A stretch of 64,000 nt of DNA, from positions 31,175 to 95,174 of IMG/VR virus record IMGVR_UViG_3300033145_000668. One strand, given 5' to 3'. Both the position numbers and the translations under genes were made by a program. Of the stretch, positions 10,029 to 58,075 are shown piece by piece. This DNA is from a virus. The notes under the pieces were generated by a model. It worked only from the letters and a program-made list of their open reading frames with translations. It did not search any database and was not told where the DNA came from. Position 1 is the first letter of the stretch. Every line of letters starts with the position of its first letter.

Positions 10029-11431
10029 CTTTTAGTTGGTTCTAATTTATTTGTTTTCTTTACTAATGCTTTTTGCTCGTCATCTGAATGTTGATAATCA
10101 TAAACATTTTTAGCAAAGAAATCCGTTTTAACATGAAAGTATGCTTTGAAAAATGCTTCACTATATTCTGCATTTAATGCTTGCTCTACAATCATATCTT
10201 TTAACTCTGGATAATAACAAGCAACAGTTCCGAGCGTAGCAAGATTTTTTAATATTCTTTTTCTATCTTCACTAAAATTCATAACCGAGTGATGCCCAAA
10301 AGACATATGCATATCACTGAAGTCACCATTGAAATAATTATTTTTTATACAGTAGTCACCCAATTCTGTTTTAGGATACGGTTGATAAATTGGGAAGTCA
10401 CAATAACCAACTTTATTTTTTATAATAAAATCAATACCAGCTAAATCATCTTCTAATGTAGAAGTTGGTAATCCTAACATAATATTTGGAACAACTGTTA
10501 TTCCATTATCTTGACATAATTTAATTCCATCTTCCATTGTTTCATTAGACATATTTCTTTTTAGTATATCATTTCTTATTCTATCATTTGTAGATTCAAT
10601 CGAACATTGTAGCGCTCTACAACCGGCATCTTTTAATAACCCAACATTTTCTTCATTTAACATATCGTATCTCATCATAGTAAAAAATGGAACTCCTACT
10701 TCTTTTGGAAACTTATCTGCAAATTCTTTTAACCATTTAGTATTTTTAGTAGTAAAAACATCATCATAAAATTTAATAGATTCTAAACCATATTTTTCTT
10801 TAATTTGTTTTACTTCTTCTATTACATAATCAACCGAATGCTTTCTAATTCTTTTTTGTCCTTTATACATTTTTTTAGCACTACTATTAAAACAATATGT
10901 ACATTGATACGGACAACCTCTTCCTACCATAAAATGTTTAGAACCTGATTTGCCTGTTTCATTACATTCTTCATTATTAAAAAATAATTCTCTATCTGGA
11001 AAAGGTAAATCATCTAAATTTTCTACTAATGGTCCTGGCTGTATAACTCTATCTACTGGTCTTTCGTAAATAAAATCTTTAAAAGTATTTTCAGCTTCTC
11101 CTCTAATTAAATAATCAAACTTCCCTTCTTCTAATACTTCTGGAAAGTATGTAGCGTGCGGTCCACCAATAACAGTTAATTGATTGGGAAATAGTTTTTT
11201 TAAACTTCTATTAAAATTAGTATAAAATACATGTTCTCCAGTTCCTCCTCCGTAAGCAACTAAATCCGGTTTATTTTCTCTTATTTTTTGTAATACATTT
11301 CCTTTTTCTATTATACCTAATGAAGTAGTACATCCTTCTTGTTTAGCATTTGCTGATAGTTGCATTATTCCTAATGGAGGATAGTAATCAACTTCTTTCA
11401 TTACAAACATTATTTTTTCTAATTTTTTCAT
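10025..11431 (-). CDS. B12-binding-domain radical SAM enzyme
   Basis: 468 residues. Residues about 1-140 form a B12-binding Rossmann-type domain ('YPPLGIMQLSANAKQEG', 'DLVAYGGGTGEH', 'TVIGGPHATYFPE', 'FDYLIRGEAE'). Next is a radical SAM core with 'GRGCPYQCTYCFNS' and 'LPTSTLEDD'. The family includes C-methylases and ring-forming enzymes. The start at 11431 gives an ATGA overlap with the transketolase half upstream; an in-frame ATG 27 bases earlier is less likely. The substrate is unknown; context suggests a sugar or lipid. Confidence 0.85.
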   Translation of the reverse strand: MKKLEKIMFVMKEVDYYPPLGIMQLSANAKQEGCTTSLGIIEKGNVLQKIRENKPDLVAYGGGTGEHVFYTNFNRSLKKLFPNQLTVIGGPHATYFPEVLEEGKFDYLIRGEAENTFKDFIYERPVDRVIQPGPLVENLDDLPFPDRELFFNNEECNETGKSGSKHFMVGRGCPYQCTYCFNSSAKKMYKGQKRIRKHSVDYVIEEVKQIKEKYGLESIKFYDDVFTTKNTKWLKEFADKFPKEVGVPFFTMMRYDMLNEENVGLLKDAGCRALQCSIESTNDRIRNDILKRNMSNETMEDGIKLCQDNGITVVPNIMLGLPTSTLEDDLAGIDFIIKNKVGYCDFPIYQPYPKTELGDYCIKNNYFNGDFSDMHMSFGHHSVMNFSEDRKRILKNLATLGTVACYYPELKDMIVEQALNAEYSEAFFKAYFHVKTDFFAKNVYDYQHSDDEQKALVKKTNKLEPTKR

Positions 11432-11898
11432 TTTAACTTCTTTAAACTCATAAAACACGGTTCATCAGTTTCAAATATTTTTTTAATACTACAATCTAAA
11501 GCTCGTTCATCAATAGGATAAAATTGCTCAATGTTATCAAATACTAACATTATCGATTCATCAATACACCTATGCGTAATTCCCTGGTCAGGATAATCAC
11601 AATATCCTATAAGTTTAACATTAGTTTTCATTGCATCAATATCTACTTTTATCATTTCAAACGCGCGTTCAATTAAAAATGGAGTAATTGTATAGACTAA
11701 TGGTTTTAATCCTTGTAGAGCCATTCCTGCAGCCATTGCAACCATCGTTTGTTCACATATACCGACATTAATAACTCTTTCTGGAAAATCTTTTTCACAA
11801 TCTGTGAAGACGCCATAGCCGATGTCTCCGAGTAGTAAAACTATTCGCTCGTCTTTTTTCATTTGCTTGTATAGTTCTTTTCCGAATTTATAACGCAT
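11428..11898 (-). CDS. transketolase pyrimidine-binding half (minimal)
   Basis: 156 residues matching the PYR domain of transketolase: 'LLGDIGYGVF', then 'VGICEQTMVAMAAGMALQG', where the Glu is the residue that activates thiamine diphosphate, and 'GYCDYPDQGITH'. The usual C-terminal transketolase domain is missing, so it is about half the size of ordinary split subunits. It should pair with the PP half at 12055-12663 to move two-carbon ketol units. The 43-residue basic peptide gene lies between the two halves. Confidence 0.85.
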   Translation of the reverse strand: MRYKFGKELYKQMKKDERIVLLLGDIGYGVFTDCEKDFPERVINVGICEQTMVAMAAGMALQGLKPLVYTITPFLIERAFEMIKVDIDAMKTNVKLIGYCDYPDQGITHRCIDESIMLVFDNIEQFYPIDERALDCSIKKIFETDEPCFMSLKKLK

Positions 11899-16355: not shown

Positions 16356-16517
16356 TTATTGTTCCCCTCTCATTGCTTTTACCCAACCACTGTAGCCACC
16401 AGATGGATATTTCTTTCCATTTTCATCTTTACAAAATACATCTTCAAACCATAATTTTTCTTGTGCCACTTCTTTTAATATTCTAATTTCTTCTTGTGTA
16501 AATTCTTCTTTACTCAT
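16356..16517 (-). CDS. small protein (53 aa), unknown
   Basis: The peptide begins MSKEEFTQEEIRILKEVAQE and ends with a Gly-rich 'PSGGYSGWVKAMRG'. It is joined to the radical SAM gene upstream by an ATGA overlap and ends 1 base before the GT9-like gene starts. No family recognised. Confidence 0.55.
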   Translation of the reverse strand: MSKEEFTQEEIRILKEVAQEKLWFEDVFCKDENGKKYPSGGYSGWVKAMRGEQ

Positions 16518-17458
16518 ACAAACTTCACATGTTCAGGAATATTTTTAATTTTTTTGAGAGCATCATTATATTGTGAATAATAACAAACGTCACATACCGA
16601 ACCATCGAAATGTTTTTGTTCTTTAAATATGCATTCCAAATCTTCTAGTTCTCCCATTTTCATATTATCTACATAATCCCTATTTTGTCCTATAATAGCA
16701 TATTGCGCTCCGCAGCATGGAAATATTCCTTCTGGAGCAATTACTGGTTTTAATAAACTGATATAACAATCTTTTGTACCAAATGTACTATCTTTTCTTC
16801 CTTGATAAATAACCTTCGAATCATCAAAATTATTTTGAAAATATACCTGCAATAAACTTAAATCTGGAACATTTTTTAAATTTAAAAGGTCAGAAACTAA
16901 TCTTACATGAGTCATATTCACATCATTAGCAAACTTTATTACTTCTCCTATTATTTCATAATTAGGATTATTAGTAACAACGTGACTAAATGCCCAACCT
17001 GTGTTTGGATTTTTTTGAATAGCATTATATATTTTTGAAAAATTAGGAACTCTATCATCTGAACTTGATATTCTACACCAAGTTAAATTATCATGAAATT
17101 TTAATTTATCAATATTATTACCATTAGAAACTAAACCAACTTCCATTCCTTTTTCTAATGCATAATCTATTGTTTCATTAATTTGTTTATATAACATTGG
17201 TTCTCCTCCTCCAGTAATAGTCACAGCTTTAGTACCATATTCTTTACTAACATCTAATATTCTTTTTATTTCTTCAAATGGTATCTTTTTCTTTTTATCT
17301 CTATCTGAACAAGAACAAAATTCACAATTTAAATCACAAGCATTTGTTGGAATTAACTGGATGTGATATGGTTTAATTTTATCATTATCGTGTATATTAT
17401 TATGCATTAATTTAACCGGAAATGAACTTGCTGATGTGTATGATTCTACTGATTTCAT
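16514..17458 (-). CDS. radical SAM enzyme with C-terminal cysteines
   Basis: 314 residues. 'TNACDLNCEFCSC' (about 37-49) and 'ITGGGEPMLY' define the radical SAM core. Later cysteines (KDCYISLL, FPCCGAQ, VCDVCYYSQ) suggest an auxiliary cluster. It is linked by 4-base overlaps to a GT2-like gene upstream and the 53-residue gene downstream. It is the third SPASM-like enzyme of the cluster and differs clearly from the other two. Confidence 0.8.
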   Translation of the reverse strand: MKSVESYTSASSFPVKLMHNNIHDNDKIKPYHIQLIPTNACDLNCEFCSCSDRDKKKKIPFEEIKRILDVSKEYGTKAVTITGGGEPMLYKQINETIDYALEKGMEVGLVSNGNNIDKLKFHDNLTWCRISSSDDRVPNFSKIYNAIQKNPNTGWAFSHVVTNNPNYEIIGEVIKFANDVNMTHVRLVSDLLNLKNVPDLSLLQVYFQNNFDDSKVIYQGRKDSTFGTKDCYISLLKPVIAPEGIFPCCGAQYAIIGQNRDYVDNMKMGELEDLECIFKEQKHFDGSVCDVCYYSQYNDALKKIKNIPEHVKFV

Positions 17459-18204
17459 TGTGCAAATAATTTCTCCATATCTTTAAATTCTCTAATGTCT
17501 AATTTACTTTCATCTTCTTCCATCCAAATTGCTTTTAATTCACCTTTATCATCATATCCAAATTTTTCTTTATCGTTGATGTATTTTTGTCGTTTCTCTT
17601 CTCTTAATTTTTTTGTCATGTGTCCAAAATGTTTTATCATTACATTAACATTTTGTTCGCTCGGTGTACAATTTTGAGGAATTACGCCACTATGTTCATC
17701 TTGAATATCATAAGCAAAATGTGATTGTACTTTATACATTTCATGTGACATTCTCGCATGTTTATCATTTTCTCCTTTTTTAGGTAGCATAACGTAATGG
17801 TCTTCGTCATTTCTCATTTCAAATAATGGAAACCCTATACTTTTATCGAATGTATTTAATAAATAAGTTCTAAACGAATTTAAATTAAATTCAGGAACAT
17901 ATTTGTCATGGTCTAAAAGCCAAACCCATTGACATTTTTCTTCTCTTGCCATATCTAATATTTTTTGATAATCTCTACTCATGTTTCTATTTTTAAAATG
18001 TTGTTTATGATATTGAACTACTTTTGGATGATTAATTAATTTTTCTCTAACCTCATCGTCAGCATCGTTATCAACTACTAAAATTACATCTCCACTTCTT
18101 TCAGCGCTTTCAATCCATTCGTTAATAAATTCCTTTCCTCCGCGAACTACTAAACCGATGGCGATTTTTGGATTCAATACTATTTCTATTTTTTCTTTAT
18201 TCAT
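17455..18204 (-). CDS. GT2-like glycosyltransferase
   Basis: 249 residues with 'KIAIGLVVRGGKEFINEWI', 'ILVVDNDADD' and 'WVWLLDHDKYVPEF', the GT-A nucleotide and DxD-type segments, but a short, atypical acceptor part. It overlaps the 54-residue gene upstream by 8 bases. Likely a sugar transferase acting with the neighbouring glycan genes. Confidence 0.65.
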   Translation of the reverse strand: MNKEKIEIVLNPKIAIGLVVRGGKEFINEWIESAERSGDVILVVDNDADDEVREKLINHPKVVQYHKQHFKNRNMSRDYQKILDMAREEKCQWVWLLDHDKYVPEFNLNSFRTYLLNTFDKSIGFPLFEMRNDEDHYVMLPKKGENDKHARMSHEMYKVQSHFAYDIQDEHSGVIPQNCTPSEQNVNVMIKHFGHMTKKLREEKRQKYINDKEKFGYDDKGELKAIWMEEDESKLDIREFKDMEKLFAQ

Positions 18205-18361
18205 TTTTTATTCCATTATTTAATTTATTTATATATAATTGAAAAGCAAAAAATACTTCTTCTTCAAATGGTTTATCATTTATTCTTCCTTCTTCATTCA
18301 TAATTCCAGTTAATAATGCTTTTGCTTCTTTTACGCATTTATCAAATATTTTTTTCGTCAT
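18197..18361 (-). CDS. small helical protein (54 aa), unknown
   Basis: Starts MTKKIFDKCVKEAKALLTG, Lys/Glu-rich and helical. It starts 20 bases inside the gene upstream and ends 8 bases inside the next one, so it fits the packed operon. No family recognised. Confidence 0.5.
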   Translation of the reverse strand: MTKKIFDKCVKEAKALLTGIMNEEGRINDKPFEEEVFFAFQLYINKLNNGIKNE

Positions 18362-19637
18362 TTTTTCTCCCAATTAAAATCTGTTCATAAAACGACCAAT
18401 CTTTCGGTGTTTCTTTTATCTCTATTCCATATGATTCAATTAACTTAATCCATTCTTCTTTTGTTTTTTTCTGTATATGTGTTGAGTCTGCTTCTAAATT
18501 TGGGTCTCCTATGAATGGAATTGAAAATAAAAATTTCTTTCCATATTTAGATATATTTGTTAATGTTTTATCTAAATCTTCATCTGATAAATGTTCTAAA
18601 ACATCTATTGCTGTTATTAAATCTGCTTCGCATCCAATATATTTTTTTTCATTACTAATATCTCCTATTATCATTCCGGAAGTAAATGCATTTTTTATTG
18701 CCCACTCACTTATTTCTATTCCTAAACTTTTGTTAACATACCACTTCCAAAAGTATAAATAACATCCTCTTCCGCAACCTAAATCTAAAACACTCTCGGG
18801 GTTAAAATAGTCATTCCATTGCTTAACCATTAAACTATGTTTAACTTCTAATCCTCTATTAGCGAAATAAATCTCATCTTTATCAATACTAAATTTATTT
18901 AAAATAATCTCCGGTAACTCAATAGGATTTAATTTTGTAACAGGATACATTCCAAATAAATGCGCTCTACTCCAATTATTCAAAAAATCTTTTTCGTGAC
19001 TAACATCTTTTAGATGTCTCAACATTTGACCATCATATCTTTTTTTAACATCCCATACACCTCCAACATAGCCCATGTGCCAAATAACACCATTATGAAA
19101 ATTATAATTTTTTAATTCTTTAGCAGATAAAATACAATGTTCTGCATCTGGAAAAAATTTATCATTTGTAATTTTAAATACTCTAATAGGAACAAAATGA
19201 ATTGGCTTAGTAGAATCTTCATGACATAAATTTCCAATTAAGTGTCTCATTCTTGGATTAAACGTATCATTATCTTCCCAATCATGTTCATCTAATAATT
19301 TTCTATAAGCAGAAAAATCATCTACTATCTCATCAGAGTCCAAATATAAACACCAATAATCTTTATAATTTTCTTTTAAATAATTTAACCAATAATTTTT
19401 TTGTTTTGATATTGCTAATTTATCTTTTTGAATAAATTTATTTTTAATTATATCTATTTTATCGTCTGGTTTTTGATTTCTGCAAAATTCTAGTACCATA
19501 TCTAATGTATTATCTGTACTCCCACCATCGCAAAAAACAATCGCATCTGCGGTTTTAACCGATTCTAAGCACATATCAATTGTATTTTCACAATCTTGCC
19601 CCATGATAACACACACTATGCGATTTTTATTTTTCAT
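18342..19637 (-). CDS. GT2 glycosyltransferase fused to a methyltransferase
   Basis: 431 residues. The N-terminal 270 residues are GT-A type ('CVIMGQDCENTIDMCLESV', 'VFCDGGSTDNTLD', 'LYLDSDEIVDDF'). The C-terminal part is a class I methyltransferase ('VLDLGCGRGCYLY', 'GIEISEWAI', 'ITAIDVLEHLSDEDLD'). A single protein that adds and methylates a sugar is seen in surface-polysaccharide pathways, where methylation can cap the chain; that role is inferred. Confidence 0.8.
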   Translation of the reverse strand: MKNKNRIVCVIMGQDCENTIDMCLESVKTADAIVFCDGGSTDNTLDMVLEFCRNQKPDDKIDIIKNKFIQKDKLAISKQKNYWLNYLKENYKDYWCLYLDSDEIVDDFSAYRKLLDEHDWEDNDTFNPRMRHLIGNLCHEDSTKPIHFVPIRVFKITNDKFFPDAEHCILSAKELKNYNFHNGVIWHMGYVGGVWDVKKRYDGQMLRHLKDVSHEKDFLNNWSRAHLFGMYPVTKLNPIELPEIILNKFSIDKDEIYFANRGLEVKHSLMVKQWNDYFNPESVLDLGCGRGCYLYFWKWYVNKSLGIEISEWAIKNAFTSGMIIGDISNEKKYIGCEADLITAIDVLEHLSDEDLDKTLTNISKYGKKFLFSIPFIGDPNLEADSTHIQKKTKEEWIKLIESYGIEIKETPKDWSFYEQILIGRKNDEKNI

Positions 19638-19764
19638 TTTGAGTATATATCATTTTTATTTTTCCGCAATTATTACAAATTACTTCTGTTCGTTTTTTTA
19701 AATCATTAATCATAATTCTGAATAATTTCTTTTTACAATCATCGCATCGTTGTCTTTGTTCCAT
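19627..19764 (-). CDS. 45-aa zinc-ribbon protein
   Basis: Begins MEQRQRCDDCKKK and has a second pair CNNC near residue 30, spaced as a four-cysteine zinc ribbon. It lies between a GT4 gene and the GT2-methyltransferase gene, overlapping the latter by 11 bases. Confidence 0.6.
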   Translation of the reverse strand: MEQRQRCDDCKKKLFRIMINDLKKRTEVICNNCGKIKMIYTQNEK

Positions 19765-19765
19765 C

Positions 19766-21001
19766 TTAATAACTACCCCCCAATTCTTCTATAACTTTTT
19801 TCCACTCTTCTTTTAATACATTCCAGTCGTAGAATTTCATGACAGCATCTCTTCCATTTATTCCCATTTCTTTTCTTTTATCTGGATTATTAAATAAATA
19901 ATCTAATTTTTTAACACCATCTTTAATACTACAAATTCCTCGTTCTACTGCCCACGAACCTGTTATTGTTCCATCTATTATTTCTGTTCCATGAACGTCT
20001 GGATTTTCTTCTTCTGTTGTTCCAACCAAATTTATTCCTAAACCTGCATTATTATCAATCACAAGTTCTTTAGTAGTAGTATAATTCGTAGCTAATACCG
20101 GAACCTGACAAGCCATTGCTTCGATTATAGGAATACCAAATCCTTCTCCGGATGTAGTTAATAAAAAACAATCCATTACATTATAAACTTCATTCATATC
20201 TTTTTCATCAAATCCTTTATAATATTTAGTACCAGTAAAAAATACTCTATTTTGAATTCCATATTTATTTATTAAAGAATTAATTGGAAAAACTTGTGCA
20301 TTATCATCGGGGTCACAATGTAACATTAAAACAGCATTAGGATTTAGTTTAGCATATTCTCCCATTATTTTTAATGTTCTATCTAACATTTTTCTTCCTT
20401 GATTTCTTGCCACTACTCCAATAACAAACTTATCATTTACTCCCCACTTTTGTCTTAATCTATTTCTTTCTTCTATAGAAACTGGAAAATAATTTGAAAT
20501 ATCTATTCCGTGAGGTATATGGCGGGTTTCTAAATTATGAACTTTTTTACATTGTTCTTTACCAAATTTAGCCATCGCTATCGGTACATCTACTTTCCTT
20601 AGAATATTTTCACAACCAAGCGGCATCCCTCCTCCACCATCTGAGGGAAACCAAAAGATTGTTTTAGCTGGAGATAAATCTAATTCAAGTAAAAATGGAT
20701 AAAGCATGAAGGTGTCTAAAAGTATTATAAGAACATCTATTTTAAACTCCTTAACATAAGTCGATAATAAATCTTTAAAATAAGCTTCTCTACCTTGTCC
20801 CATAATTGTGAAGTTTAATTTTCTACCATCTTCAAATGTTACTGGAGGAACTATCGTTTGTCCTACATAAGTGTGAGCAAAATATCTAACATTATGTCCT
20901 TCTTCTACTAATATGTTTCCTAAACTTTTTGCCTGATTCGAGTACCCTGTTGTTATAAATGGAGAATCACTTAGTATTCCTATATTAAAACTTGTTTTCA
21001 T
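19766..21001 (-). CDS. GT4-family glycosyltransferase
   Basis: 411 residues of GT-B type: 'SPFITTGYSNQAKSLG' at the N terminus, 'RHIPHGIDISNYFPV', 'IGVVARNQGRKMLD', and the donor-site 'GEGFGIPIIEAMACQVPVLA' with the E-x7-E pattern. Lys/Arg-Gln pairs before this fit nucleotide-sugar binding. It is the first gene of the glycan cluster and is related in layout to the GT4 at the other end. Confidence 0.9.
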   Translation of the reverse strand: MKTSFNIGILSDSPFITTGYSNQAKSLGNILVEEGHNVRYFAHTYVGQTIVPPVTFEDGRKLNFTIMGQGREAYFKDLLSTYVKEFKIDVLIILLDTFMLYPFLLELDLSPAKTIFWFPSDGGGGMPLGCENILRKVDVPIAMAKFGKEQCKKVHNLETRHIPHGIDISNYFPVSIEERNRLRQKWGVNDKFVIGVVARNQGRKMLDRTLKIMGEYAKLNPNAVLMLHCDPDDNAQVFPINSLINKYGIQNRVFFTGTKYYKGFDEKDMNEVYNVMDCFLLTTSGEGFGIPIIEAMACQVPVLATNYTTTKELVIDNNAGLGINLVGTTEEENPDVHGTEIIDGTITGSWAVERGICSIKDGVKKLDYLFNNPDKRKEMGINGRDAVMKFYDWNVLKEEWKKVIEELGGSY

Positions 21002-23000: not shown

Positions 23001-25439
23001 TTAAAATAGCGTCTTCTGACCGCTTAATTTTAATTTTGCGATTGCTACAATTTTATCCAATTCTTTCATTCTACCCAATACTTCATAAATTGGTTTTGCT
23101 TTTTGATATATATTTTTTATTACCATTGCCGACCAATCTATTTTAATATTTTTATCTTTAAACTGTGTTTCATCTTCGAAGCACATAACATCGGACACTT
23201 GTCCTGTAATATATAATAACTTAAATTTATTTCCTTCTCTTAATCTTAAACCTAAATTTTCATTGCTCCACTTCACTCCTCTAATAACCGGACGATTCGC
23301 TGGTTTAGTTGTTGTATGTCCTTCTTTATCTGTTCGTGTAATAGTATATTTTTCAATTGCTTTATTTAACTTAGAAGGAATAGCAATATCATTTAACTCT
23401 ATTTTTCTCATAATCATATCATCGATAGTTTTACAAACATAATCATTTAATAAATTAAAATCATCTTGCATTAATAACAATCTAAATAACTCCTTTTGAA
23501 AAACTTTTGACATTGGAGCAGTGTCGCTTCTCCTAACTTGCATTCCGCACGCTTTAATTTTATCACATTCTTCTCCATCATCCCAAGTTGTTCTTAAAAC
23601 ATATCTTTTCTTAGTTTGAATAAAAGCTTTTTTAGCAAACTTTTCGAATTCCATATTAATAGTACTCTTCGGCATACCTAAATCTTCTATTACAAACTTT
23701 TCAATTTGGTCGTTAATTAATTTTTGTAATCTTTTTCCTTCTACAATTGGGTCTTTATCTTTAGGAATTACAAATCCAATAGAATCAGTATCAGACATAA
23801 CATGAGTATATCCTGTATCTTCTACAACTATATCTCTAGCTTTACAAATTAATTGTCGAGCATTAGCTGTTACTGCATTTGCTAATCGCAAATCATTCAT
23901 TCTAAATCCATTAGATGCGAATACACCCCAAATACTATTGATAACGATTTTAATAGCAAACATTTTATCTCGTAAATCCTGTCCTCCAGTTCCTTGCATT
24001 TGTTCTTTTAATTCTTTTTTTAGTTGTAGCAAATCATCAATTACGCTTGGCATAATTCCTTGTCCTTGTTGGTCGACTTTTAAACCGGTTTCAATATTAA
24101 CAATTATTCCATCGTCGCTAATTTTTTCTTTACTTAAATTAAAAGTTTTAATAATATTTGGATACAATCCACTATAATCAAAAAATACTACATTATCATA
24201 TAATCCAGGATTAGTAAAAACATAAGCTCCTTGAAGATGTTCGTCTTCTCCTCGTTCTCTAAAAATAGGTTTAGTAGGAAATGATTTTTGAGTATTATAT
24301 TTTTTTAATATCTTAGTATCGTGAATTCTCGACATATAAAAACAATCAGTAATATTTCTTACTCCAGCAAAGTTTCTAATTTGTTCAAACAAATCTAATA
24401 ATTTACACTTCTCATTAATTCTAACTACTAATTCAACATCTTTTATATTATAATAAATCAGTTCTTCTAGGTTTTCCCTCCACGATTTGCTCATATCATG
24501 CACTGGTAACTTCTGGTCACCGAGCTCAGTATCAGCAACGCTATTTAAAGAATAACTCGCTAATTCTCCAAAGTGTAACTGTCTGTACATTTTTAAAGAA
24601 TCTGCTAATACTAATCCTAATATTTTTATTTCTCCCTTCATCATCTTTGCTACTCTTGCATTAAAATCAATTCCGTGCCACATTACTGTGTCGAGCGGAT
24701 TAGTAAAAGAACATAACTTTTCTACATCAATCTCTAAATGTTCCAGACGAGCATATAAATATCCTATATCGAATCCAATGTTCCATGCCGTTAATATGTC
24801 ACCGTCTTCACAATTAAGATAAAAAAGAAATTGTCTTAACATTTGGTCTTCATTATTAAAATAGTAAATAGTTTTATCGCCGTCTTTTTTAATTACACTT
24901 TCAATATCTTCTCTCCAAACATATGTAACATATTTATTACTAAAACTATCGTGCGCCGTAATGCAAGTTATTTTTTCAACAGGATTATCATTATCAGGAA
25001 ATCCTTTATCGCAAGTTGTTTCAATATCAAATGTTATTGTTTTATATTTTGTCGACTCAACCTTCTCAACTTTATCTATCATATATCGCATATCAATAGA
25101 TAAATCTAATTCGTATGTATTATCTAAATTACCTCGTAAGTCTGTAATATATTTTTTAAAAAATAATTGTTCTTTAGGATGATTAAATATAATCTTATAA
25201 ACCGGTTCTCCGTAAATATCATTAGGACCAAATCCAGACATTTGAGCATAAGTTGGAAGTATAAAGTTTTTACTTTTTAGGAGAGTATCGTTAACATAAC
25301 AATATGGCTTAAAATCAGTTACTCGTCTAACTTCTTTTGTTCCGTCTTTATTTCTAATAAATAAAAGTATAGTTGGCACACCATTAATAATCTTAGAACT
25401 AATATCATATAATCCAATATACGTGTCTCGTTGCGTCAT
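23001..25439 (-). CDS. polB: family B DNA polymerase with 3'-5' exonuclease
   Basis: 812 residues. Exonuclease motifs: FDIET (137-141), 'NIGFDIGYLY' (220-229), 'YYNIKDV' (329-335). Polymerase motifs: 'DYSGLYPN' (motif A, 421-428), 'KIVINSIWG' (motif B, 497-505) and 'SDTDSIGF' (motif C, 549-556). All catalytic Asp/Glu are present. The last residues 'GQKTLF' look like a C-terminal PCNA-binding peptide as in archaeal polymerases. This is the replicative enzyme. It follows the DpdA-like gene by 1 base in the same operon. Confidence 0.95.
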   Translation of the reverse strand: MTQRDTYIGLYDISSKIINGVPTILLFIRNKDGTKEVRRVTDFKPYCYVNDTLLKSKNFILPTYAQMSGFGPNDIYGEPVYKIIFNHPKEQLFFKKYITDLRGNLDNTYELDLSIDMRYMIDKVEKVESTKYKTITFDIETTCDKGFPDNDNPVEKITCITAHDSFSNKYVTYVWREDIESVIKKDGDKTIYYFNNEDQMLRQFLFYLNCEDGDILTAWNIGFDIGYLYARLEHLEIDVEKLCSFTNPLDTVMWHGIDFNARVAKMMKGEIKILGLVLADSLKMYRQLHFGELASYSLNSVADTELGDQKLPVHDMSKSWRENLEELIYYNIKDVELVVRINEKCKLLDLFEQIRNFAGVRNITDCFYMSRIHDTKILKKYNTQKSFPTKPIFRERGEDEHLQGAYVFTNPGLYDNVVFFDYSGLYPNIIKTFNLSKEKISDDGIIVNIETGLKVDQQGQGIMPSVIDDLLQLKKELKEQMQGTGGQDLRDKMFAIKIVINSIWGVFASNGFRMNDLRLANAVTANARQLICKARDIVVEDTGYTHVMSDTDSIGFVIPKDKDPIVEGKRLQKLINDQIEKFVIEDLGMPKSTINMEFEKFAKKAFIQTKKRYVLRTTWDDGEECDKIKACGMQVRRSDTAPMSKVFQKELFRLLLMQDDFNLLNDYVCKTIDDMIMRKIELNDIAIPSKLNKAIEKYTITRTDKEGHTTTKPANRPVIRGVKWSNENLGLRLREGNKFKLLYITGQVSDVMCFEDETQFKDKNIKIDWSAMVIKNIYQKAKPIYEVLGRMKELDKIVAIAKLKLSGQKTLF

Positions 25440-25440
25440 A

Positions 25441-26202
25441 TTATAACACCCGCTTTACCATATCTATATTATATTGTATTGTGTTTAACTGGTCTTGTGT
25501 TAATTCAGAAATATTATGGTCTAATCTTTCTAATGGTTCCGTAATACATTCATCTAACTTAATTCCCATCGAACCTAACTTAAAACAAATATTCGAATCC
25601 ATACTTCTTACCAACGGATATTTTTTATATGTTTCGATTTCGTGAATTAAATAATGATTAGCTCCAGCACAATGAATTGGCTTCCTAACTAAATCTTGTT
25701 CGTGTAAAAACTCTAAACATTTAATTCTACAAATTGCAAAATCTTTTGTTCCTGCCATTTCTGCAAACGCTTCCACAGAATATTTACTAATAGCAATTAC
25801 ATCTATGCTTGGATGATTTAGCATCCATTTGTAGCAAGATATCCATTCGCTTGCGTTTTTACCTTGCGGAAGACCAACAATTCTAAAATTAATTTTATCG
25901 TTTGTTGTTAAGTGTGAAATAAACTCTTCTGTTAATCTTACAGTTTCTTCATAATCGTATAACTTATCACTTGCCCAAATTTCATTACTATTAACATCTC
26001 TAGCAGATTGTATTACTTGTTCGACTGGAGAACTAACTCCATTTTCTGCAGCCATATTATCTGTGATTTTATAATTTTTATGGTCCCTATAATAAGCAGT
26101 ATATTCAGGATTGTTATTTATCCAATCACAAAGAGTGAATGCTATTTCTCCTTGCTCTGAGAATTCTGGATAGTTTATTCCTGCTATAAATCCGAATTTC
26201 AT
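25441..26202 (-). CDS. dpdA: DpdA-like transglycosylase for 7-deazaguanine in DNA
   Basis: 253 residues resembling phage DpdA, a tRNA-guanine transglycosylase relative that swaps guanine in DNA for a 7-deazaguanine base. Seen: 'IWASDKLYDYEETVRLTEEF' (the DpdA 'PDxxxDxxxT' region), 'VGLPQGKNASEWISCYKWM' (PQG at 112-114), 'IHCAGANHYLI' and 'VRSMDSN', in which Asp202 fits the nucleophile position. The TGT zinc site is absent, as in many DpdA. The neighbours make the base precursor (QueD, QueE, FolE2), which strongly supports this role. Confidence 0.75.
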   Translation of the reverse strand: MKFGFIAGINYPEFSEQGEIAFTLCDWINNNPEYTAYYRDHKNYKITDNMAAENGVSSPVEQVIQSARDVNSNEIWASDKLYDYEETVRLTEEFISHLTTNDKINFRIVGLPQGKNASEWISCYKWMLNHPSIDVIAISKYSVEAFAEMAGTKDFAICRIKCLEFLHEQDLVRKPIHCAGANHYLIHEIETYKKYPLVRSMDSNICFKLGSMGIKLDECITEPLERLDHNISELTQDQLNTIQYNIDMVKRVL

Positions 26203-26990
26203 TTCGAACCTCGCTCATTAAGAATCTTTATTTTACTATAAATGTTAACATCTTCTTTAGTATAAGAATTATTTGCATTATTTTTTATTTTCCTATTATG
26301 TTTTTGTCTATTTAATAAATATTTTTTTAATAATATAGCTTGTTCTTTTTTAACGTATAAATGCGGTATAATTAAATCGCATAATTTAATTAAATCAACT
26401 TGTTTCGAAAACTTTACATTATAAGTTCTTTTCCACCTATTATTAGGATGTTTATAATCTGATATATTAATAATAGTAGACGATACATATTTATTAAAAA
26501 TATTTACACAACGTTCTATTGATTTTTTATGTGTTCCGCCTATAGAGATACCATAAGCATATGCAATACCATTTTTTCGCTTTGTCTGCCATATTCCAAT
26601 ATATCCCTCACCGTCTATAAAACCACACAACCACAACAAATCTGGGTCATAATTATTTTCAATATATGCTCCGTAATAACCATCTTCATTTATTTCAACT
26701 TTAACCTCTCGATTTTTATATTTTTTTTCAATTCTTTGTTTTAATGCTGACGCCATCATTTCACAACTTTTATTTTCAGTTAGTTTTATTTTTTTAATTA
26801 AACTATCTATATATCGCTGAAAACATATATATTCTATGTCGCGGTTATCGTGAAATTGTTCTATCCAAACGATAACTTTAAACTCATGATGGTGTTCATT
26901 TTTTAAAAAATCAACTTGTTTAATATTACAATCTACCCATTTATGCGTGTCTCTAAAGGATGTAGTTACTTTTGCAAATATTTTAATCAT
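26199..26990 (-). CDS. QueD-like T-fold domain fused to a LAGLIDADG endonuclease
   Basis: 263 residues. Residues 1-112 ('FRDTHKWVD', 'FLKNEHHHEFKVIVWIEQFH', 'RDIEYICFQRYI', 'SCEMMASAL', 'VEINEDGYYGAYIE') resemble a QueD/6-pyruvoyl-tetrahydropterin synthase-like T-fold. Residues about 116-263 start with 'LLWLCGFIDGEGYIGIW', a LAGLIDADG homing endonuclease motif, with a single copy. The second part seems added behind the natural end of the first. It overlaps dpdA by 4 bases. The T-fold call is tentative; the LAGLIDADG call is good. Confidence 0.65.
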   Translation of the reverse strand: MIKIFAKVTTSFRDTHKWVDCNIKQVDFLKNEHHHEFKVIVWIEQFHDNRDIEYICFQRYIDSLIKKIKLTENKSCEMMASALKQRIEKKYKNREVKVEINEDGYYGAYIENNYDPDLLWLCGFIDGEGYIGIWQTKRKNGIAYAYGISIGGTHKKSIERCVNIFNKYVSSTIINISDYKHPNNRWKRTYNVKFSKQVDLIKLCDLIIPHLYVKKEQAILLKKYLLNRQKHNRKIKNNANNSYTKEDVNIYSKIKILNERGSK

Positions 26991-27132
26991 TTATTATTTC
27001 TCCTATACTTTTTAGTTTTATTTTACATAACGTACATCTTCTACCACCAATTTTATCAACATACACGCCTCGTCTGTTACAGCGTTCACATCTTAAAATT
27101 TCTAATACTTTTTTAACTTCATAATTAGTCAT
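26983..27132 (-). CDS. 49-aa zinc-ribbon protein
   Basis: 'LRCERCNRRGV' and 'RRCTLCKIK' give a four-cysteine zinc site. It overlaps both neighbours (FolE2 stop and the T-fold start) by 4 to 8 bases. Confidence 0.6.
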   Translation of the reverse strand: MTNYEVKKVLEILRCERCNRRGVYVDKIGGRRCTLCKIKLKSIGEIIND

Positions 27133-27956
27133 TTTAAATCTCTACCGCAATTTAATACTGCAACAGCTTTATGCTGGTGAATTGATTCATTATGATTTAT
27201 TACAATTACATAATCATTAATTACATCATCTAAAATTTTATCTAATTCAATGGAAATATCTCTACTCATATCTTCAACAAATTTAGGATTATTATAAGCT
27301 GTTTCTGTTACATATTTTTCATCCGGTCTTTTTAATACTGACCATATAGGACAACTAGCACAATTTTCTACTATATTTATTATTTCTTCAATTAAAACAT
27401 CTTCTTTTAATTCAACAGTAACCGAAGCATTAGATAATTGATTATGAGCAGAATATTCTGAAATTTCTTTACTGCAAGGACATAAACTTGTATAAGGAAC
27501 GTTTACAGTTAAATATATTTTATCTTCACCATTAATACTTTTACCTTCTATCGTACAAAGATAATGTACATAACCTTTTATTTTACTAACCGGTGCTTCT
27601 TTTTTAAGAAAATAATTAAAATGAACTTTTATATAACTATCATTTGAATTTAATTTTTCCTTTAAATCTATTAATAATTGTCTAATAATATCTGTACTAA
27701 CGTAATCTTCTTCTAAAACATCATGTATTAAAATCGGTAACCTACTCATAGAAATTCCTTTTTCTTCTTCACTTAATGAAACATAAATACTCACATCTCC
27801 AACAGTAGACCTTATCTTTTTATTATGGTCTAATATTTTAATAGGAACGATTAAATCTCTTATACCAACTTTATTTATTTTTTTATGCCTCGCGTCTTTT
27901 TGTTCTTGAACATCTGGTAACGCATTTTTTAATTTTTCTAATTCAATTGAGTTCAT
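27129..27956 (-). CDS. folE2: GTP cyclohydrolase IB (FolE2/MptA type)
   Basis: 275 residues from ATG 27956, chosen because GGGAGGGT stands just before it; an upstream in-frame ATG lies inside the previous gene. 'SLCPCSKEISEYSAHNQ' contains the metal-binding Cys and the hallmark of GCYH-IB, and 'NCASCPIWSVLKRPDEKYVTE' is the C-terminal conserved part. It converts GTP to dihydroneopterin triphosphate (or the archaeal cyclic form), the first step to 7-deazaguanines. It is in one operon with QueD and QueE. Confidence 0.9.
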   Translation of the reverse strand: MNSIELEKLKNALPDVQEQKDARHKKINKVGIRDLIVPIKILDHNKKIRSTVGDVSIYVSLSEEEKGISMSRLPILIHDVLEEDYVSTDIIRQLLIDLKEKLNSNDSYIKVHFNYFLKKEAPVSKIKGYVHYLCTIEGKSINGEDKIYLTVNVPYTSLCPCSKEISEYSAHNQLSNASVTVELKEDVLIEEIINIVENCASCPIWSVLKRPDEKYVTETAYNNPKFVEDMSRDISIELDKILDDVINDYVIVINHNESIHQHKAVAVLNCGRDLK

Positions 27957-28314
27957 CTTCACCCTCCCAGGGGAAGACCAACCATTCGTTCTTCTTACCT
28001 TTTGTTTCAATAAAAAAATCAGGTTTAACCTTAGTCCACTTTGAATTATAAATACAAGCTATCTTTTTATTTTTTACATTTTGTAATGTTGTTCCTGTAT
28101 CTGAAATATCATCGCACACCAAAGTATTTTTAGTAGGATGTATTAAAATAGGTAATCTTAAAACGTGACTCATTTTAACTGCAACTGGTAATCCGCCTCT
28201 CGGCACTCCATAAACACCATCAAATTTTATTTTAGAATCTACTACCATGTCAGCTAACTCATCTATCATAGCTCCTACTCCTTCCCATTTAATATAAATA
28301 TATTTTTTTGTCAT
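27943..28314 (-). CDS. purine-type phosphoribosyltransferase
   Basis: 123 residues with 'FDGVYGVPRGGLPVAVKMS' and the PRPP motif 'TLVCDDISDTGTTL' (about 65-78), as in xanthine/guanine phosphoribosyltransferases. It may salvage guanine or handle a deazaguanine base next to the QueD/QueE/FolE2 genes. It is short for the family but the core is intact. Confidence 0.8.
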   Translation of the reverse strand: MTKKYIYIKWEGVGAMIDELADMVVDSKIKFDGVYGVPRGGLPVAVKMSHVLRLPILIHPTKNTLVCDDISDTGTTLQNVKNKKIACIYNSKWTKVKPDFFIETKGKKNEWLVFPWEGEDELN

Positions 28315-28484
28315 TTTGAATCTCCCATTATTATATCTGTTAATCCTCGTTCATATAAAAAAGTATCTTCTGGTTCAATTCCCAAGTCATTGCATGATTT
28401 ATAATATGCAACTGCATTTTGAATTTGTTGATATTCTATTCTTTTATCATTTAATTCTTTTAGCTTTACTTCATAAGGTTTCAT
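28311..28484 (-). CDS. 57-aa protein, unknown
   Basis: Starts MKPYEVKLKELNDKRIEY, helical, one Cys. ATGA overlap with the phosphoribosyltransferase and 0-base gap to QueE upstream. Not recognised. Confidence 0.55.
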   Translation of the reverse strand: MKPYEVKLKELNDKRIEYQQIQNAVAYYKSCNDLGIEPEDTFLYERGLTDIIMGDSK

Positions 28485-29111
28485 TTAAACTCCTTTCTCA
28501 TTGCCCCATACATCAATATGTATTCTCTGGCAATATTTTTTATTATTTTTAACACAATAATTCCAAACATCTTGTTGAATTTTTTTATCTTTTTCTTTAT
28601 CATTTGTTGTTAAAGGCATAAGCATTGTTGCATCTGATATCATATCTTTATTCATTTTTAAATCTGTAACTATTTTTATATCACATTTTGTTGACTCATC
28701 TAATCTTTCAGAAAACGCTATAACATTTTGTTGAGCTCGCTTATGCTTTGGACTAAATGCAATATAAGAAAATAAATCAGCATACAATGGAAGAATGTCA
28801 CCATTTGTTTCTAGATGATGGTATATATATTCTTCTATGTTATAGATTCCAAATCCACATTCTTGTATTACTTCATATATTTCATCTTGTTGTAACATTG
28901 GCTCTCCTCCTGTCCAGACAACAATATTACATTTACTTTTTTTAATTTCTTTTGTAATTTGTGCAACTGACATTTTTTTTCCTTTAATATGATACTTTGT
29001 GTCACAGAAGTCGCAATTTCTATTACATCCAGATGTTCTTATAAATAATACTGGGTGACCAGAATATTTACCTTCCCCTTGAATTGATTTAAAAATTTCT
29101 GAGATTATCAT
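28485..29111 (-). CDS. queE: 7-carboxy-7-deazaguanine synthase
   Basis: 208 residues. 'SIQGEGKYSGHPVLFIR', 'SGCNRNCDFCDTKY' (CxxxCxxC-type SAM cluster site), 'VVWTGGEPMLQQ', 'HHLETNG' and 'YIAFSPKHKRAQQ' are the QueE set. It rearranges carboxytetrahydropterin to 7-carboxy-7-deazaguanine (CDG) by radical SAM chemistry. It is coupled to the 90-residue gene upstream, which follows QueD. Confidence 0.92.
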   Translation of the reverse strand: MIISEIFKSIQGEGKYSGHPVLFIRTSGCNRNCDFCDTKYHIKGKKMSVAQITKEIKKSKCNIVVWTGGEPMLQQDEIYEVIQECGFGIYNIEEYIYHHLETNGDILPLYADLFSYIAFSPKHKRAQQNVIAFSERLDESTKCDIKIVTDLKMNKDMISDATMLMPLTTNDKEKDKKIQQDVWNYCVKNNKKYCQRIHIDVWGNEKGV

Positions 29112-29380
29112 TCTTTATTATCTCCAACTTTAATTTCATCTAAACTTATTTCTCTTACTGAGCCATCTGGATAACTACAACAATCAAAATATGCAATAGT
29201 ACCATCTTTGAACGTTATCTTAATATTTCCAATTTCACTATCTTCTATTTTTAAAAATTCTTTTCCTATTAGTGCTTCTGCTTCGTCATAAATATGCCTT
29301 AAAGTTTTATCGCAACACTTTCCGGGCATGCCTACATCATCATAAATCTTACCACAACCGTGACAAATATATTTAGTCAT
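29108..29380 (-). CDS. 90-aa protein with rubredoxin-like zinc start
   Basis: 'KYICHGCGKIYDDVGMPGKCC' contains a CxxC and a CC pair in the style of rubredoxin/zinc ribbons. The rest is a small beta-rich domain ('IGNIKITFKDGTIAYFDCCSYPDG'). Between queD and queE with 4-base overlaps on both sides; role in the pathway unknown. Confidence 0.55.
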   Translation of the reverse strand: MTKYICHGCGKIYDDVGMPGKCCDKTLRHIYDEAEALIGKEFLKIEDSEIGNIKITFKDGTIAYFDCCSYPDGSVREISLDEIKVGDNKE

Positions 29381-29796
29381 TCTAAATCCTCCGAATCAAT
29401 TTCACAATAAGAATTTGGACTCTCATAAACTTTAATTTTATAAGATAATCTATCATCCATTTGTTTTAGAAGTTTTAATATTTCATAACATAAATTCTCT
29501 GCTGTTGAATTTTCATCCATCCAATAAATTGCACCATCTCCGCAAATAAATGTAATCATTCCACCTAACTCTCTATTTTCCTCACAATCTTTTAATATAG
29601 TTTTATGGTCAAAATATTCCTTTAATTTTTTACGATTAGTAAAGTCCCAAAGAATTCCTACATCATCAAAATGCTTATCGTCACCATTTATTTCGAGATG
29701 AACCTCCCACCTATGACCGTGTAAAAAATTACATTTACCATCATATCCAACCAGTCTATGTGCTGCATCAAAATCGAATCTTGTGTTTAATTTCAT
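29377..29796 (-). CDS. queD: 6-carboxytetrahydropterin synthase
   Basis: 139 residues. 'FDAAHRLVGYDGKCNFLHGHRWEVH' supplies the zinc histidines and catalytic Cys region, 'WDFTNRKKLKEYFDHKTI' the DF...DH motif, 'NSTAENLCYEIL' and 'IKVYESPNSY' the C-terminal substrate Glu. It makes carboxytetrahydropterin from dihydroneopterin triphosphate. First gene of the deazaguanine operon; leader of about 70 bases upstream. Confidence 0.9.
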   Translation of the reverse strand: MKLNTRFDFDAAHRLVGYDGKCNFLHGHRWEVHLEINGDDKHFDDVGILWDFTNRKKLKEYFDHKTILKDCEENRELGGMITFICGDGAIYWMDENSTAENLCYEILKLLKQMDDRLSYKIKVYESPNSYCEIDSEDLE

Positions 29797-34312: not shown

Positions 34313-34651
34313 TCAATAATTATTATTTTTAAGATGTTCGTGAAGATAACCCATGCAATTAAACATCAATCCACAAATGGCTTCTTCGATTCCTTCTCTT
34401 GATTTTATTCCTCTATGCTCTTCCCACCAATCAAAAAAGTGTCTAAATCCAGATTTCATATATTCTTCTTTCGGCATTCCCTTTTGCCAATTATCCGAGC
34501 TTCTTATTGTCCCGTCCTTTTGAAATCTATTTTTGTGCATATATTCAGCAAATCGTTTTAGAACTATTGGACTCAGGAAACCCTCGAAGTCTAATTTATC
34601 TTCATCGGTGTCTCGAGTTGCTCCGCTGGCGAACTTTCTTACTTTTGTCAT
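34313..34651 (-). CDS. DUF5664-like (dATP/dGTP diphosphohydrolase-type) protein
   Basis: 112 residues. The start 'FASGATRDTDEDKLDFEGF' and 'RFAEYMHKNRFQKDG' with 'SSDNWQKGMP' match a phage family (DUF5664) annotated as the N-terminal part of dATP/dGTP diphosphohydrolases. It may act on dNTPs together with DNA base modification. Hydrolytic residues were not verified. Confidence 0.65.
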   Translation of the reverse strand: MTKVRKFASGATRDTDEDKLDFEGFLSPIVLKRFAEYMHKNRFQKDGTIRSSDNWQKGMPKEEYMKSGFRHFFDWWEEHRGIKSREGIEEAICGLMFNCMGYLHEHLKNNNY

Positions 34652-35280
34652 TGTTTGTGCCTAGGTCCTTCAGAGAACCAATCGAACATATCTCTTCGAA
34701 GTTTAGCCATTCGTCCATCTGGATGGGTAAATACTATTCCTTCAACAAAATGTTCTGTTTCGTTTTCTTCTGTTTTTCCGTGTATTCTTAAATTATATAA
34801 TGGCATTAATTCTCTAAACCATTCTCTTATAGATTCAAATGTTTTTGGATACTTACCCCAACATTTATACATAAGATGGTTTTGTCCATAAGTTTCAAAT
34901 GGTATCCATATATGTTCATCTAAGTTATAAGGATTACCATTAATTTTTGGGCCAATACACTCGCCAAAATGTTGGCCATCTCCTAAAAATTCAGTATAAC
35001 CTTTTGAATAAGAATTCATAATTCCTATAATTATATGTTGTTTACCTTTATTAAAAAACGGTATTCTTTCTGTTCTGTTCCACACAGCTGTGATTACTCC
35101 ATCTGTTATATTTATAGAAACATTAGTACCATGTAATTTTTCAACTGCCATTACCGACTCGTCTTCAAACACCCACTCCATATCTTCTGCTATTTCATCT
35201 GTAACTATGTAGTGTCCATCTATTTCTTTTCTCACAAATGGTGAATATAATTTTGGCATGTCTTTTATTTTATCTATCAT
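34648..35280 (-). CDS. RNA ligase (T4 Rnl2/DRAM-like nucleotidyltransferase)
   Basis: 210 residues. 'VMAVEKLHGTNVSI' is motif I with the adenylated Lys (KxHG), 'VWNRTERIPF' motif Ia-like, 'EGIVFTHPDGRMAKLRRDMFDW' motifs IV and V. Compact size as in viral RNA ligases. It could seal nicked RNA such as cleaved tRNA and thus links to the tRNA module at 57-64 kb. ATGA overlap with the following gene. Confidence 0.8.
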   Translation of the reverse strand: MIDKIKDMPKLYSPFVRKEIDGHYIVTDEIAEDMEWVFEDESVMAVEKLHGTNVSINITDGVITAVWNRTERIPFFNKGKQHIIIGIMNSYSKGYTEFLGDGQHFGECIGPKINGNPYNLDEHIWIPFETYGQNHLMYKCWGKYPKTFESIREWFRELMPLYNLRIHGKTEENETEHFVEGIVFTHPDGRMAKLRRDMFDWFSEGPRHKQ

Positions 35281-48593: not shown

Positions 48594-48685
48594 AGTAGTG
48601 TTTAGTATTATAGTCTTTAATGACGCGAAAGAGGACGGAGATGGAAAGCCGTTAATCAGATGAAGGAGGACTCGGCGGGCTATAG

Positions 48686-48755
48686 GGATGCATAGTGCAG
48701 TGCTAGCATTTCTGCGATGCCGCAGAAGACCCAGGTTAAATTCCTGGTGCATCTT
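48686..48755 (+). ncRNA. tRNA-like element, anticodon loop of unusual size
   Basis: Acceptor GGATGCA / TGCATCT, D arm GTGC / GCAT, T arm CCAGG-TTAAATT-CCTGG. The anticodon arm is TTCTGC-GATGCC-GCAGAA, that is a 6-base loop on six pairs or an 8-base loop on five, not the standard seven on five; the variable part is only about three bases. GCC (Gly) would be the nearest reading but does not sit correctly. Not a standard tRNA. Confidence 0.5.
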
Positions 48756-48758
48756 ACT

Positions 48759-57031: not shown

Positions 57032-58075
57032 ATGATAACTAAAATACTAAAAGAAGTAAATAGAGTAATGAAACCGCATGCTGTATATGCCGTTGGTGGA
57101 TGTGTGCGTGACCATTTATTAGGAATCGAGCCAAAAGATTACGATTTTTGTACTTCTGCTACTCCAGAACAAATTGAAAAATGTATTAAATCTAAATCTA
57201 TGAGAGCATATTTAACTGGAAAGAGATTTGGTACTATTGGGTGTAAAGTAAAAGTTGATGGTAATTACCACATGATTGAGATAACAACTTTTAGGAAAGA
57301 GCAGTATGCAAAAGGAGATAGAAAACCCGACGTTGAGTTTGTTACTTCGTTACATGAGGATTTAAGTAGAAGGGATTTTACTATTAATAGCATGTGTGCA
57401 AGATTGGTAAACGACAAGCTAAAAATAGTAGACCCATTCAACGGTCAGGAAGATTTGAAGAATGGAATAATTAGAGCAGTTGGTAATCCTAAAATAAGAT
57501 TCAAAGAGGACCCATTGAGAATTTTAAGATGTGTAAGGTTTGCTTGTAGATTTAATTATGAAATAGAAGAAAAAACAAGAAAGAAAATGGAAAGTGGAGC
57601 AATCCAAATTTTAAATATTAGTAAGGAACGGTGGGTTATAGAGTTGGATAAGATTTTACAATCTAATAATGTTAGAAAGGGATTAGAATTATTATGGGAT
57701 ACTAAATTGTTTATTTATATGATACCAGAATTGTCTTTACAGCGAGGGTATGAGCAAAACTCTCAATATCATAATTTTACATTAGATGAGCACACTATTA
57801 AAGTTGTAGAAGCGGTTAGAAAGGATACTGATGATTTGAATTTACTTTGGGCTGCGTTACTTCATGATTGTGGAAAGGTTTTTTGTAAAACAGAAAATAA
57901 AAAAGGTTATAATAATTATATATCCCATGAAAATATAAGTTCTGAAATTGTTTTAAAATATGTTAATTATTTAAAATGGAGTAATGAAAGAAAAAATAAA
58001 GTATATGATTTAGTTCTCAATCACTTAGATGATGATTGTGAACTTAGAAAATATGATAACTTAGGTAAAGTGTAA
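57032..58075 (+). CDS. cca: class II CCA-adding enzyme / tRNA nucleotidyltransferase
   Basis: 347 residues. 'AVGGCVRDHLLGIEPKDYDF' (motif A with the metal Asp pair), 'RRDFTINSM' (motif B), 'DPLRILRCVRFACRF' (motif D, ribose/base selection) and an HD-type end with 'LLWAALLHDCGKVF'. This is the bacterial/eukaryotic class II type; archaea normally use class I, so it looks transferred. It restores the CCA end of tRNA. It is a little shorter than usual, and an endonuclease gene follows, so the end may be trimmed. Confidence 0.9.
   Translation: MITKILKEVNRVMKPHAVYAVGGCVRDHLLGIEPKDYDFCTSATPEQIEKCIKSKSMRAYLTGKRFGTIGCKVKVDGNYHMIEITTFRKEQYAKGDRKPDVEFVTSLHEDLSRRDFTINSMCARLVNDKLKIVDPFNGQEDLKNGIIRAVGNPKIRFKEDPLRILRCVRFACRFNYEIEEKTRKKMESGAIQILNISKERWVIELDKILQSNNVRKGLELLWDTKLFIYMIPELSLQRGYEQNSQYHNFTLDEHTIKVVEAVRKDTDDLNLLWAALLHDCGKVFCKTENKKGYNNYISHENISSEIVLKYVNYLKWSNERKNKVYDLVLNHLDDDCELRKYDNLGKV

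Follow-up and report, generated by a model that had tools for sequence, protein, structure and literature searches.

The 64,000-nucleotide stretch of viral DNA analyzed here (the window; bases 31175–95174 of the 95,174-bp IMG/VR virus record IMGVR_UViG_3300033145_000668) contains a minus-strand operon that probably makes a 7-deazaguanine from GTP and substitutes it for guanine in the viral DNA. The step usually carried out by QueC appears to be taken over in this operon by a paralogue of QueD, which we call the N-family domain (N). The record is possibly a fragment, and negative results for the whole record cover its 95,174 bp. Pfam families for tail tube, capsid, and terminase occur elsewhere in the record and identify the virus as a tailed phage. 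A preliminary description, made from the DNA sequence, had proposed a 7-deazaguanine DNA-modification cluster without QueC in which the pathway ended at 7-carboxy-7-deazaguanine (CDG). The genes and the QueC-free pathway are supported by the present analysis, and the end point at CDG, probably wrong, gives way to a likely virus-encoded substitute for QueC. The genes are as follows, in operon order.

29377–29796, minus strand: QueD (6-carboxy-5,6,7,8-tetrahydropterin synthase), 139 amino acids (PF01242, 3.8e-22; PHROG QueD-like, 2e-19)
29108–29380, minus strand: 90-amino acid open reading frame (ORF) with a CxxC-type N-terminus, overlapping QueD and QueE by 4 bp each (sub-threshold Pfam match to DUF7448 only)
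28485–29111, minus strand: QueE (CDG synthase, radical SAM), 208 amino acids (PF04055, 2.8e-15; PHROG QueE-like, 1.1e-33)
27943–28314, minus strand: phosphoribosyltransferase, probably of purine type, 123 amino acids (PF00156, 2.2e-7)
27129 to ~27956, minus strand: FolE2 (GTP cyclohydrolase IB; PF02649, 9.9e-78, entire model covered)
26986–27132, minus strand: 49-codon ORF with CxxC...CxxC, filling the gap between FolE2 and N with short overlaps (assigned from sequence)
26649–26990, minus strand: N-family domain, a QueD paralogue (profile, structure model, and exclusion of QueC)
26199–26648, minus strand: LAGLIDADG homing-endonuclease domain, following the N domain in the same frame (PF00961, 0.005, below cut-off; PHROG 5046, HNH endonuclease, 1.8e-13)
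25441–26202, minus strand: TGT/DpdA-fold protein of the branch called DPD here, 253 amino acids (model fold, invariant residues)
23001–25439, minus strand: family-B DNA polymerase (PF00136, 2e-27), 1 bp downstream of the DpdA-like gene

Neighboring genes are arranged head to tail with overlaps of 4–17 bp. The gaps are one of 170 bp between QueE and the phosphoribosyltransferase and one of 138 bp between FolE2 and N, the latter bridged by the 49-codon ORF. FolE2 has three candidate starts (ATG at 27956, GTG at 27962, and TTG at 28010). Among the Pfam and PHROG matches of the four named genes (QueD, QueE, FolE2, and the phosphoribosyltransferase), all lie beyond chance, the weakest being that of the phosphoribosyltransferase (2.2e-7). 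The AAH, C-NFL-HGH, STAEN, and YES motifs are readable in QueD. The preliminary description had placed these four genes and the DpdA-like gene correctly. Its statement that they are co-transcribed beside the polymerase is right as to adjacency; co-transcription itself is suggested by strand and spacing. Its inventory was incomplete, having passed over the ORF at 26199–26990, the 90-codon ORF at 29108–29380, and the 49-codon ORF at 26986–27132.

The first of these, the ORF at 26199–26990, encodes an N domain of ~113 amino acids followed in frame by the LAGLIDADG domain. The N family adjoins DPD in many viruses, for example as gp040 of Cellulophaga phage phiST. The structure model of N (pLDDT 90) superimposes on Escherichia coli QueD (4ntk) with a Z-score of 13.4 (109 residues, 2.3 Å). 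Ten residues (H16, H33, H35, R50, E53, S75, C76, E77, E102, and D103) are invariant in the 32-row family alignment and retained in the window protein. Three of these, H16, H33, and H35, are the zinc histidines, and N thus has both the PTPS/QueD fold and its metal site. In QueD, the cysteine preceding HxH and an Asp-His segment are catalytic. Neither is present in N: in an alignment with the window QueD, V26 occupies the place of the cysteine before HGH, KSCEM replaces STAEN, and the middle segment is absent. Lacking the cysteine and having a shorter middle, N should not make 6-carboxy-5,6,7,8-tetrahydropterin (CPH4), and we infer that it is a QueD paralogue rather than a second CPH4 synthase. 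The relationship is weak by the family's own profile, which links N to one QueD-like ORF (1.6e-4), and the structure comparison therefore carries the claim of kinship.

Short proteins alone went into the final N profile, because proteins in which N is fused to a kinase caused the first version to merge with kinases. Such fusions, with N in the same reading frame as a kinase-like domain, occur in loci L020, L022, and L043 (identical coordinates), L063, and L065. The N domain also forms the C-terminal end of two longer proteins (L004:6644–7525 and L103:6221–7369), the other part of which has no Pfam match. The N domain of the window, with the endonuclease fused to it, is whole up to the usual end of the family. 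A LAGLIDADG-like ORF is found in the cluster of locus L031 as well, and an annotated homing endonuclease lies beside the N gene of Vibrio phage D479.

The evidence that N acts where QueC would act comes from the distribution of the two families. The QueC family (PF06508) had no match in the full 95,174-bp record in a search that was positive in 12 of 14 control genomes, in line with the preliminary description, in which no QueC was seen. A Pfam search of 88 further ORFs gave no QueC, QueF, ArcS, or GATase among the matches listed, which comprised 25 of 32 and 25 of 29 families. Of 84 loci bearing DPD, a set that includes the window and near-duplicates, 44 had N, 24 had QueC, none had both, and 16 had neither, several of the last being short contigs. 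With six near-duplicates removed, the counts were 40, 24, and 14 for N, QueC, and neither (locus L061 counted as N from its whole record). We also searched 43 whole records: 40 DPD records, for which length was the main criterion of choice, plus three named phages included for their N, with some near-identical pairs among them. N was present in 33 and QueC over the cut-off in 10 (in one of these in two pieces); one record had both and one, that of locus L029, had neither. QueC over the cut-off was found in none of six further N records, the window's own included (CP220 and 9g were positive in the same search), and in none of 17 whole records selected for N (KVP40 positive in the same search). 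Altogether, 56 viral records with N were searched in full, and QueC exceeded the cut-off in one of them, with a partial match. The N profile, for its part, had no match in CP220, 9g, CAjan, KVP40, phi47:1, HVTV-1, or BSP7. Fisher's exact test for N versus QueC (p 1e-10) ignores relatedness and is not to be leaned on. Since N is found where QueC is missing, it most likely acts on CDG. The earlier view that the visible pathway stops at CDG is therefore not supported, as the operon contains a QueD paralogue that many viruses have instead of QueC.

A search of IMG/VR with N alone gave the same picture from another direction. It yielded at least 577 viral contig stretches coding for a relative; the best 80 loci (L129–L208), many of them short contigs, were retained. 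None of these 80 had QueC, while FolE was present in 55, QueE in 36, the phosphoribosyltransferase in 36, QueD in 4, DPD in 1, and 9g-type DpdA in none. Of the 80, 71 contain a non-DPD protein with TGT motifs that iterated profiles tie both to KVP40.0122 and to a protein of Xanthomonas phage X1; the X1 relative is annotated as a queuine tRNA-ribosyltransferase. Sixty-seven of the 71 carry a ~520-amino acid family (Paride type) and four carry other members; over all 80 loci, the ~520-amino acid family is present in 66 by clustering and 67 by profile. This family has no Pfam match. Its link to the X1 group arose with the first round of profile searching, for 7 of 68 members (best 2.3e-7), and a single-sequence search did not recover X1. 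The two groups have in common DSGG, HxLG, and, further on, a conserved Asp, a pattern to be expected in TGT-like enzymes. KVP40 has its second-group member (KVP40.0122) together with QueC and no N match. Treating the TGT-like proteins of the N-selected loci as one family, possibly DpdA2, was rejected: 67 of the 71 loci hold the ~520-amino acid family, and the X1 group keeps a histidine that DpdA2 reportedly lacks. A ~363-amino acid family with only a weak match to glycosyltransferase family 61 occurs in 73 of the 80 loci. Because N occurs with DPD or with proteins of the ~520-amino acid and X1 types, it accompanies more than one insertion-type enzyme. The factor common to N loci is CDG made without QueC, and acting on CDG would be the economical role for N.

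The candidate insertion enzyme of the window (25441–26202) has no Pfam match at E 1 and only PHROG matches of unknown function. Its AlphaFold model, built from 73 sequences, has a mean pLDDT of 94.7. The best solved matches are TGT (1r5y; Z-score 17.8, 224 residues, 3.0 Å) and the DNA preQ0 insertase DpdA (7ui4; Z-score 17.4, 218 residues, 2.7 Å), and the protein thus adopts the TIM-barrel fold of TGT. All 73 aligned rows share D48, N49, D79, H177, G180, and D202, which the window protein also retains; we take D48 and D202 to be the catalytic aspartates (general acid/base and nucleophile). An hhalign alignment with the DpdA proteins of 9g and CAjan pairs D48 with D72, H177 with H196, and D202 with D215, at an E-value of 0.0021 and a probability of 13 percent against a two-row target. 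In this same weak alignment, the conserved histidine 196 of 9g-type DpdA is matched by the invariant H177. The 73-row DPD profile matches nothing in 9g, CAjan, KVP40, HVTV-1, phi47:1, BUCT-ZZ01, or Paride, and a BLASTP search with 9g DpdA gave no useful match to the DPD branch. The profile does find Campylobacter phage CP220 (2.3e-41) and BSP7 (6.9e-52), and DPD is also encoded by Ahp1, RHph_I1_18, and Bakedbeans, isolates fetched for carrying N. As the profile matches nothing in 9g or CAjan yet finds CP220 and BSP7, DPD is treated as a separate branch. The DpdA-like call of the preliminary description thus agrees with the fold, with the amendment that the window enzyme probably belongs to a TGT/DpdA branch distinct from the DpdA of 9g and CAjan.

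A described feature speaks against identity with DpdA2 (Vibrio phage nt-1 type): DpdA2 is characterized as having no histidine at position 196 in the account of Hutinet 2019 (PMC6884629), and the window enzyme keeps H177. The Pfam family for TGT (PF01702) had no match in 14 records, a result that is uninformative since 9g, whose genome encodes a DpdA, is missed as well. The single window protein as a query retrieved no relatives in IMG/VR. In 36 of 65 loci, the start of a DNA polymerase gene lies no more than 2.5 kb downstream of DPD. In Rhizobium phage RHph_I1_18 (L104:8041–9306), the DPD enzyme and a DUF3310 domain share one reading frame. In Bacillus phage BSP7 (L005:6704–8716), a family-A DNA polymerase with an N-terminal domain of the uracil-DNA-glycosylase superfamily (PF03167, 4.9e-16) directly follows the insertion enzyme.

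In the pathway we propose, FolE2 would open GTP, QueD would yield CPH4, and QueE would convert this to CDG, as expected from their family assignments. The N-family domain would then take CDG in place of QueC. Decarboxylation would be the least elaborate reaction for an enzyme with zinc and no further cofactor, and removal of the carboxylate to give 7-deazaguanine is our best guess for the reaction. The TGT/DpdA-fold protein, whose fold and residues are as described above, would exchange guanine in DNA for 7-deazaguanine by means of its two conserved aspartates, and the phosphoribosyltransferase would probably recycle the freed guanine to GMP. Such salvage after base exchange seems to fit the settings in which this phosphoribosyltransferase type is found. 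It is present in 20 of the 87 sources of the DPD search (85 of which carry a DpdA-like gene), it gives a match under a gene annotated as GTP cyclohydrolase in Pseudomonas phage NP1, and the cluster of Synechococcus phage BUCT-ZZ01 has an annotated xanthine-guanine phosphoribosyltransferase. The likely benefit to the virus would be escape from host restriction, as described for the modification of phage CAjan (Hutinet 2019, PMC6884629).

Several points weigh against this pathway. The partial QueC match noted above, in Vibrio phage D479 (L006), lies at 153872–154066 and covers 69 positions at 32.8 bits in a 278-amino acid frame. The record of L029 has neither family, and QueC-like matches below the cut-off occur in four N records (16.3, 16.2 in X1, 20.9, and 19.5 bits). 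Relatedness inflates the N and QueC counts, and their mutual exclusion is not phylogenetically secure: the state changes between N and QueC on a quick tree number five with 84 rows and four with 78, and an independent-pairs test of N versus QueC was not significant, being underpowered. The extra endonuclease domain could impair N in the window, though the invariant residues checked are retained, and the host could supply QueC. The decarboxylase role, finally, would rest on the position of N in the pathway and on a 2023 report by Cui, which reportedly describes DpdL, a decarboxylase of CDG from phages, along with phage DNA that contains 7-deazaguanine. A literature search found no paper on DpdL, or one combining a decarboxylase with CDG. 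The N step may already be described in that report, and we claim no novelty for it.

Base exchange might alternatively take place before polymerization. A possible, though not favored, route is that the DPD enzyme replaces the base in dGMP, after which a kinase phosphorylates the product to the triphosphate for use by the polymerase, which could allow complete replacement of guanine. Infected cells reportedly contained no dADG phosphates in work by Crippen in 2019, which counts against a nucleotide route; the same work is said to have found complete replacement of dG in Campylobacter phages. Of 70 DPD loci, 40 have an ORF of 110–360 amino acids with a P-loop no farther than 2.5 kb from DPD, compared with 0 of 17 loci of 9g-type DpdA, controls that are mutually related (56–100 percent identical to 9g DpdA). 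Loci with less than 1.5 kb upstream and near-duplicates were dropped from the 70, and the controls are 17 of 20 9g-type loci. By class, such an ORF is near DPD in 28 of 39 N loci and 8 of 23 QueC loci, and 9g, CAjan, and X1 have none. Being strict, the P-loop pattern misses phiST, L007, L019, L020, and L063, where a profile found kinase-like ORFs, and a background control of only 10 ORFs (2 positive) is uninformative. In CP220, the DPD enzyme sits between a protein with HD and AAA_33 domains and an AAA_28 protein, and in Aeromonas phage Ahp1 a DNMK deoxynucleotide kinase follows it. DPD-branch proteins are acidic (median pI 5.0, n=84). Machinery for modified dGTP has been proposed for Campylobacter phages (Hutinet 2019, PMC6884629). 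A P-loop is, however, no proof of a nucleotide kinase, and the window virus has neither a P-loop ORF near DPD by the pattern test nor an AAA_18 match in its record. The nucleotide route is therefore kept as a rival to exchange in DNA. A broader version is doubtful as a whole: without QueC, CDG would be converted to 7-deazaguanine by a zinc enzyme derived from QueD, and a TGT branch unrecognized in supposedly DpdA-free Campylobacter-type phages, acting on deoxynucleotides with a kinase, would achieve full guanine replacement before replication.

The remaining alternatives concern which base is made and for what. That the DNA receives CDG itself, with N serving otherwise, for instance as a QueD-like subunit for regulation or scaffolding, is unlikely: the fusions of N to kinase-like domains (L020/L022/L043, L063, and L065) would fit a nucleotide-linked role equally, but the invariant zinc-site histidines and the acidic and cysteine residues of N look catalytic, and its occurrence in place of QueC, rather than alongside it, argues against a role away from CDG. 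The absence of QueC from the 95,174-bp record would also agree with a virus that makes CDG and leaves host QueC to take it to preQ0, and many hosts of such phages encode the queuosine pathway (Hutinet 2019, PMC6884629). This would leave the presence of N at loci lacking QueC unexplained (56 N records, one partial exception), and we consider it improbable. Of the products listed in the preliminary description, 7-deazaguanine is thus favored, and CDG itself and a product of host QueC have become less likely. A boost to tRNA queuosine has been raised for pathway-bearing phages without DpdA (Hutinet 2019, PMC6884629). That the genes of this operon raise host tRNA queuosine rather than modify viral DNA is scarcely credible, as the operon holds a TGT-fold protein with catalytic residues, a polymerase gene lies within 2.5 kb downstream of DPD in the 36 of 65 loci given above, and a decarboxylated base would be no precursor of queuosine.

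If the preferred pathway, with N acting on CDG and the DPD enzyme inserting the product, is correct, the N family is a candidate for the missing enzyme of QueC-free phages, with relatives in the at least 577 viral contig stretches found here. The DPD branch is likewise a candidate insertion enzyme for Campylobacter phages, for which a DpdA-independent route has been considered (Hutinet 2019, PMC6884629). As N and the insertion enzyme are both small and directly assayable, guanine replacement in such phages is testable. A TGT-fold enzyme acting on free nucleotides, if true, would to our knowledge be a new substrate class for the fold.

Elsewhere in the window, a group of radical-SAM, glycosyltransferase, and methyltransferase genes lies downstream of the polymerase (16517–21001) and could serve decoration of the DNA or of the particle surface. 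An RNA-processing set includes an RNA ligase and a CCA-adding-type enzyme with an HD domain (34648–35280 and 57032–58075), and one tRNA-Gln is encoded at 48685–48757. A Pfam batch also identified a Thg1 tRNA-His guanylyltransferase and peptidyl-tRNA hydrolase 2 in the record, as well as a transketolase pyrimidine-binding domain at 11431–11898 and a TPP-binding domain in another ORF.

Several known systems resemble the operon in part. N shares its fold and zinc histidines with E. coli QueD and differs from the QueD of the window in lacking the cysteine before HGH and the middle segment. DpdL, the phage enzyme reported by Cui in 2023, would do the step proposed for N. In Enterobacteria phage 9g and Escherichia phage CAjan, the genes for FolE, QueD, QueE, and an insertion enzyme of the TGT family likewise form a cluster next to replication genes (Hutinet 2019, PMC6884629). 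They carry QueC or Gat-QueC, whereas the window virus has N instead, and their DpdA is not matched by the 73-row DPD profile. Campylobacter phage CP220 (Firehammervirus) shares the DPD branch through CPT_0056 (L096:6676–7452), which is annotated as hypothetical and is, by sequence, a candidate insertion enzyme of that phage. Unlike the window virus, CP220 has QueC and no N match, and CPT_0056 lies in a separate module flanked by P-loop proteins, ~46 kb from QueC. Modified Campylobacter phages are grouped among those without DpdA in Hutinet 2019 (PMC6884629). Cellulophaga phage phiST differs from the window in that its GTP cyclohydrolase is of type I instead of FolE2, its cluster includes a MazG-like gene and a P-loop ATPase (gp041), annotated polymerase III genes lie downstream, and its N protein (gp040) has no endonuclease domain. 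It is otherwise like the window: with no QueC match in its whole record, phiST encodes QueD, QueE, a GTP cyclohydrolase, the N gene gp040, and the DPD gene gp042.

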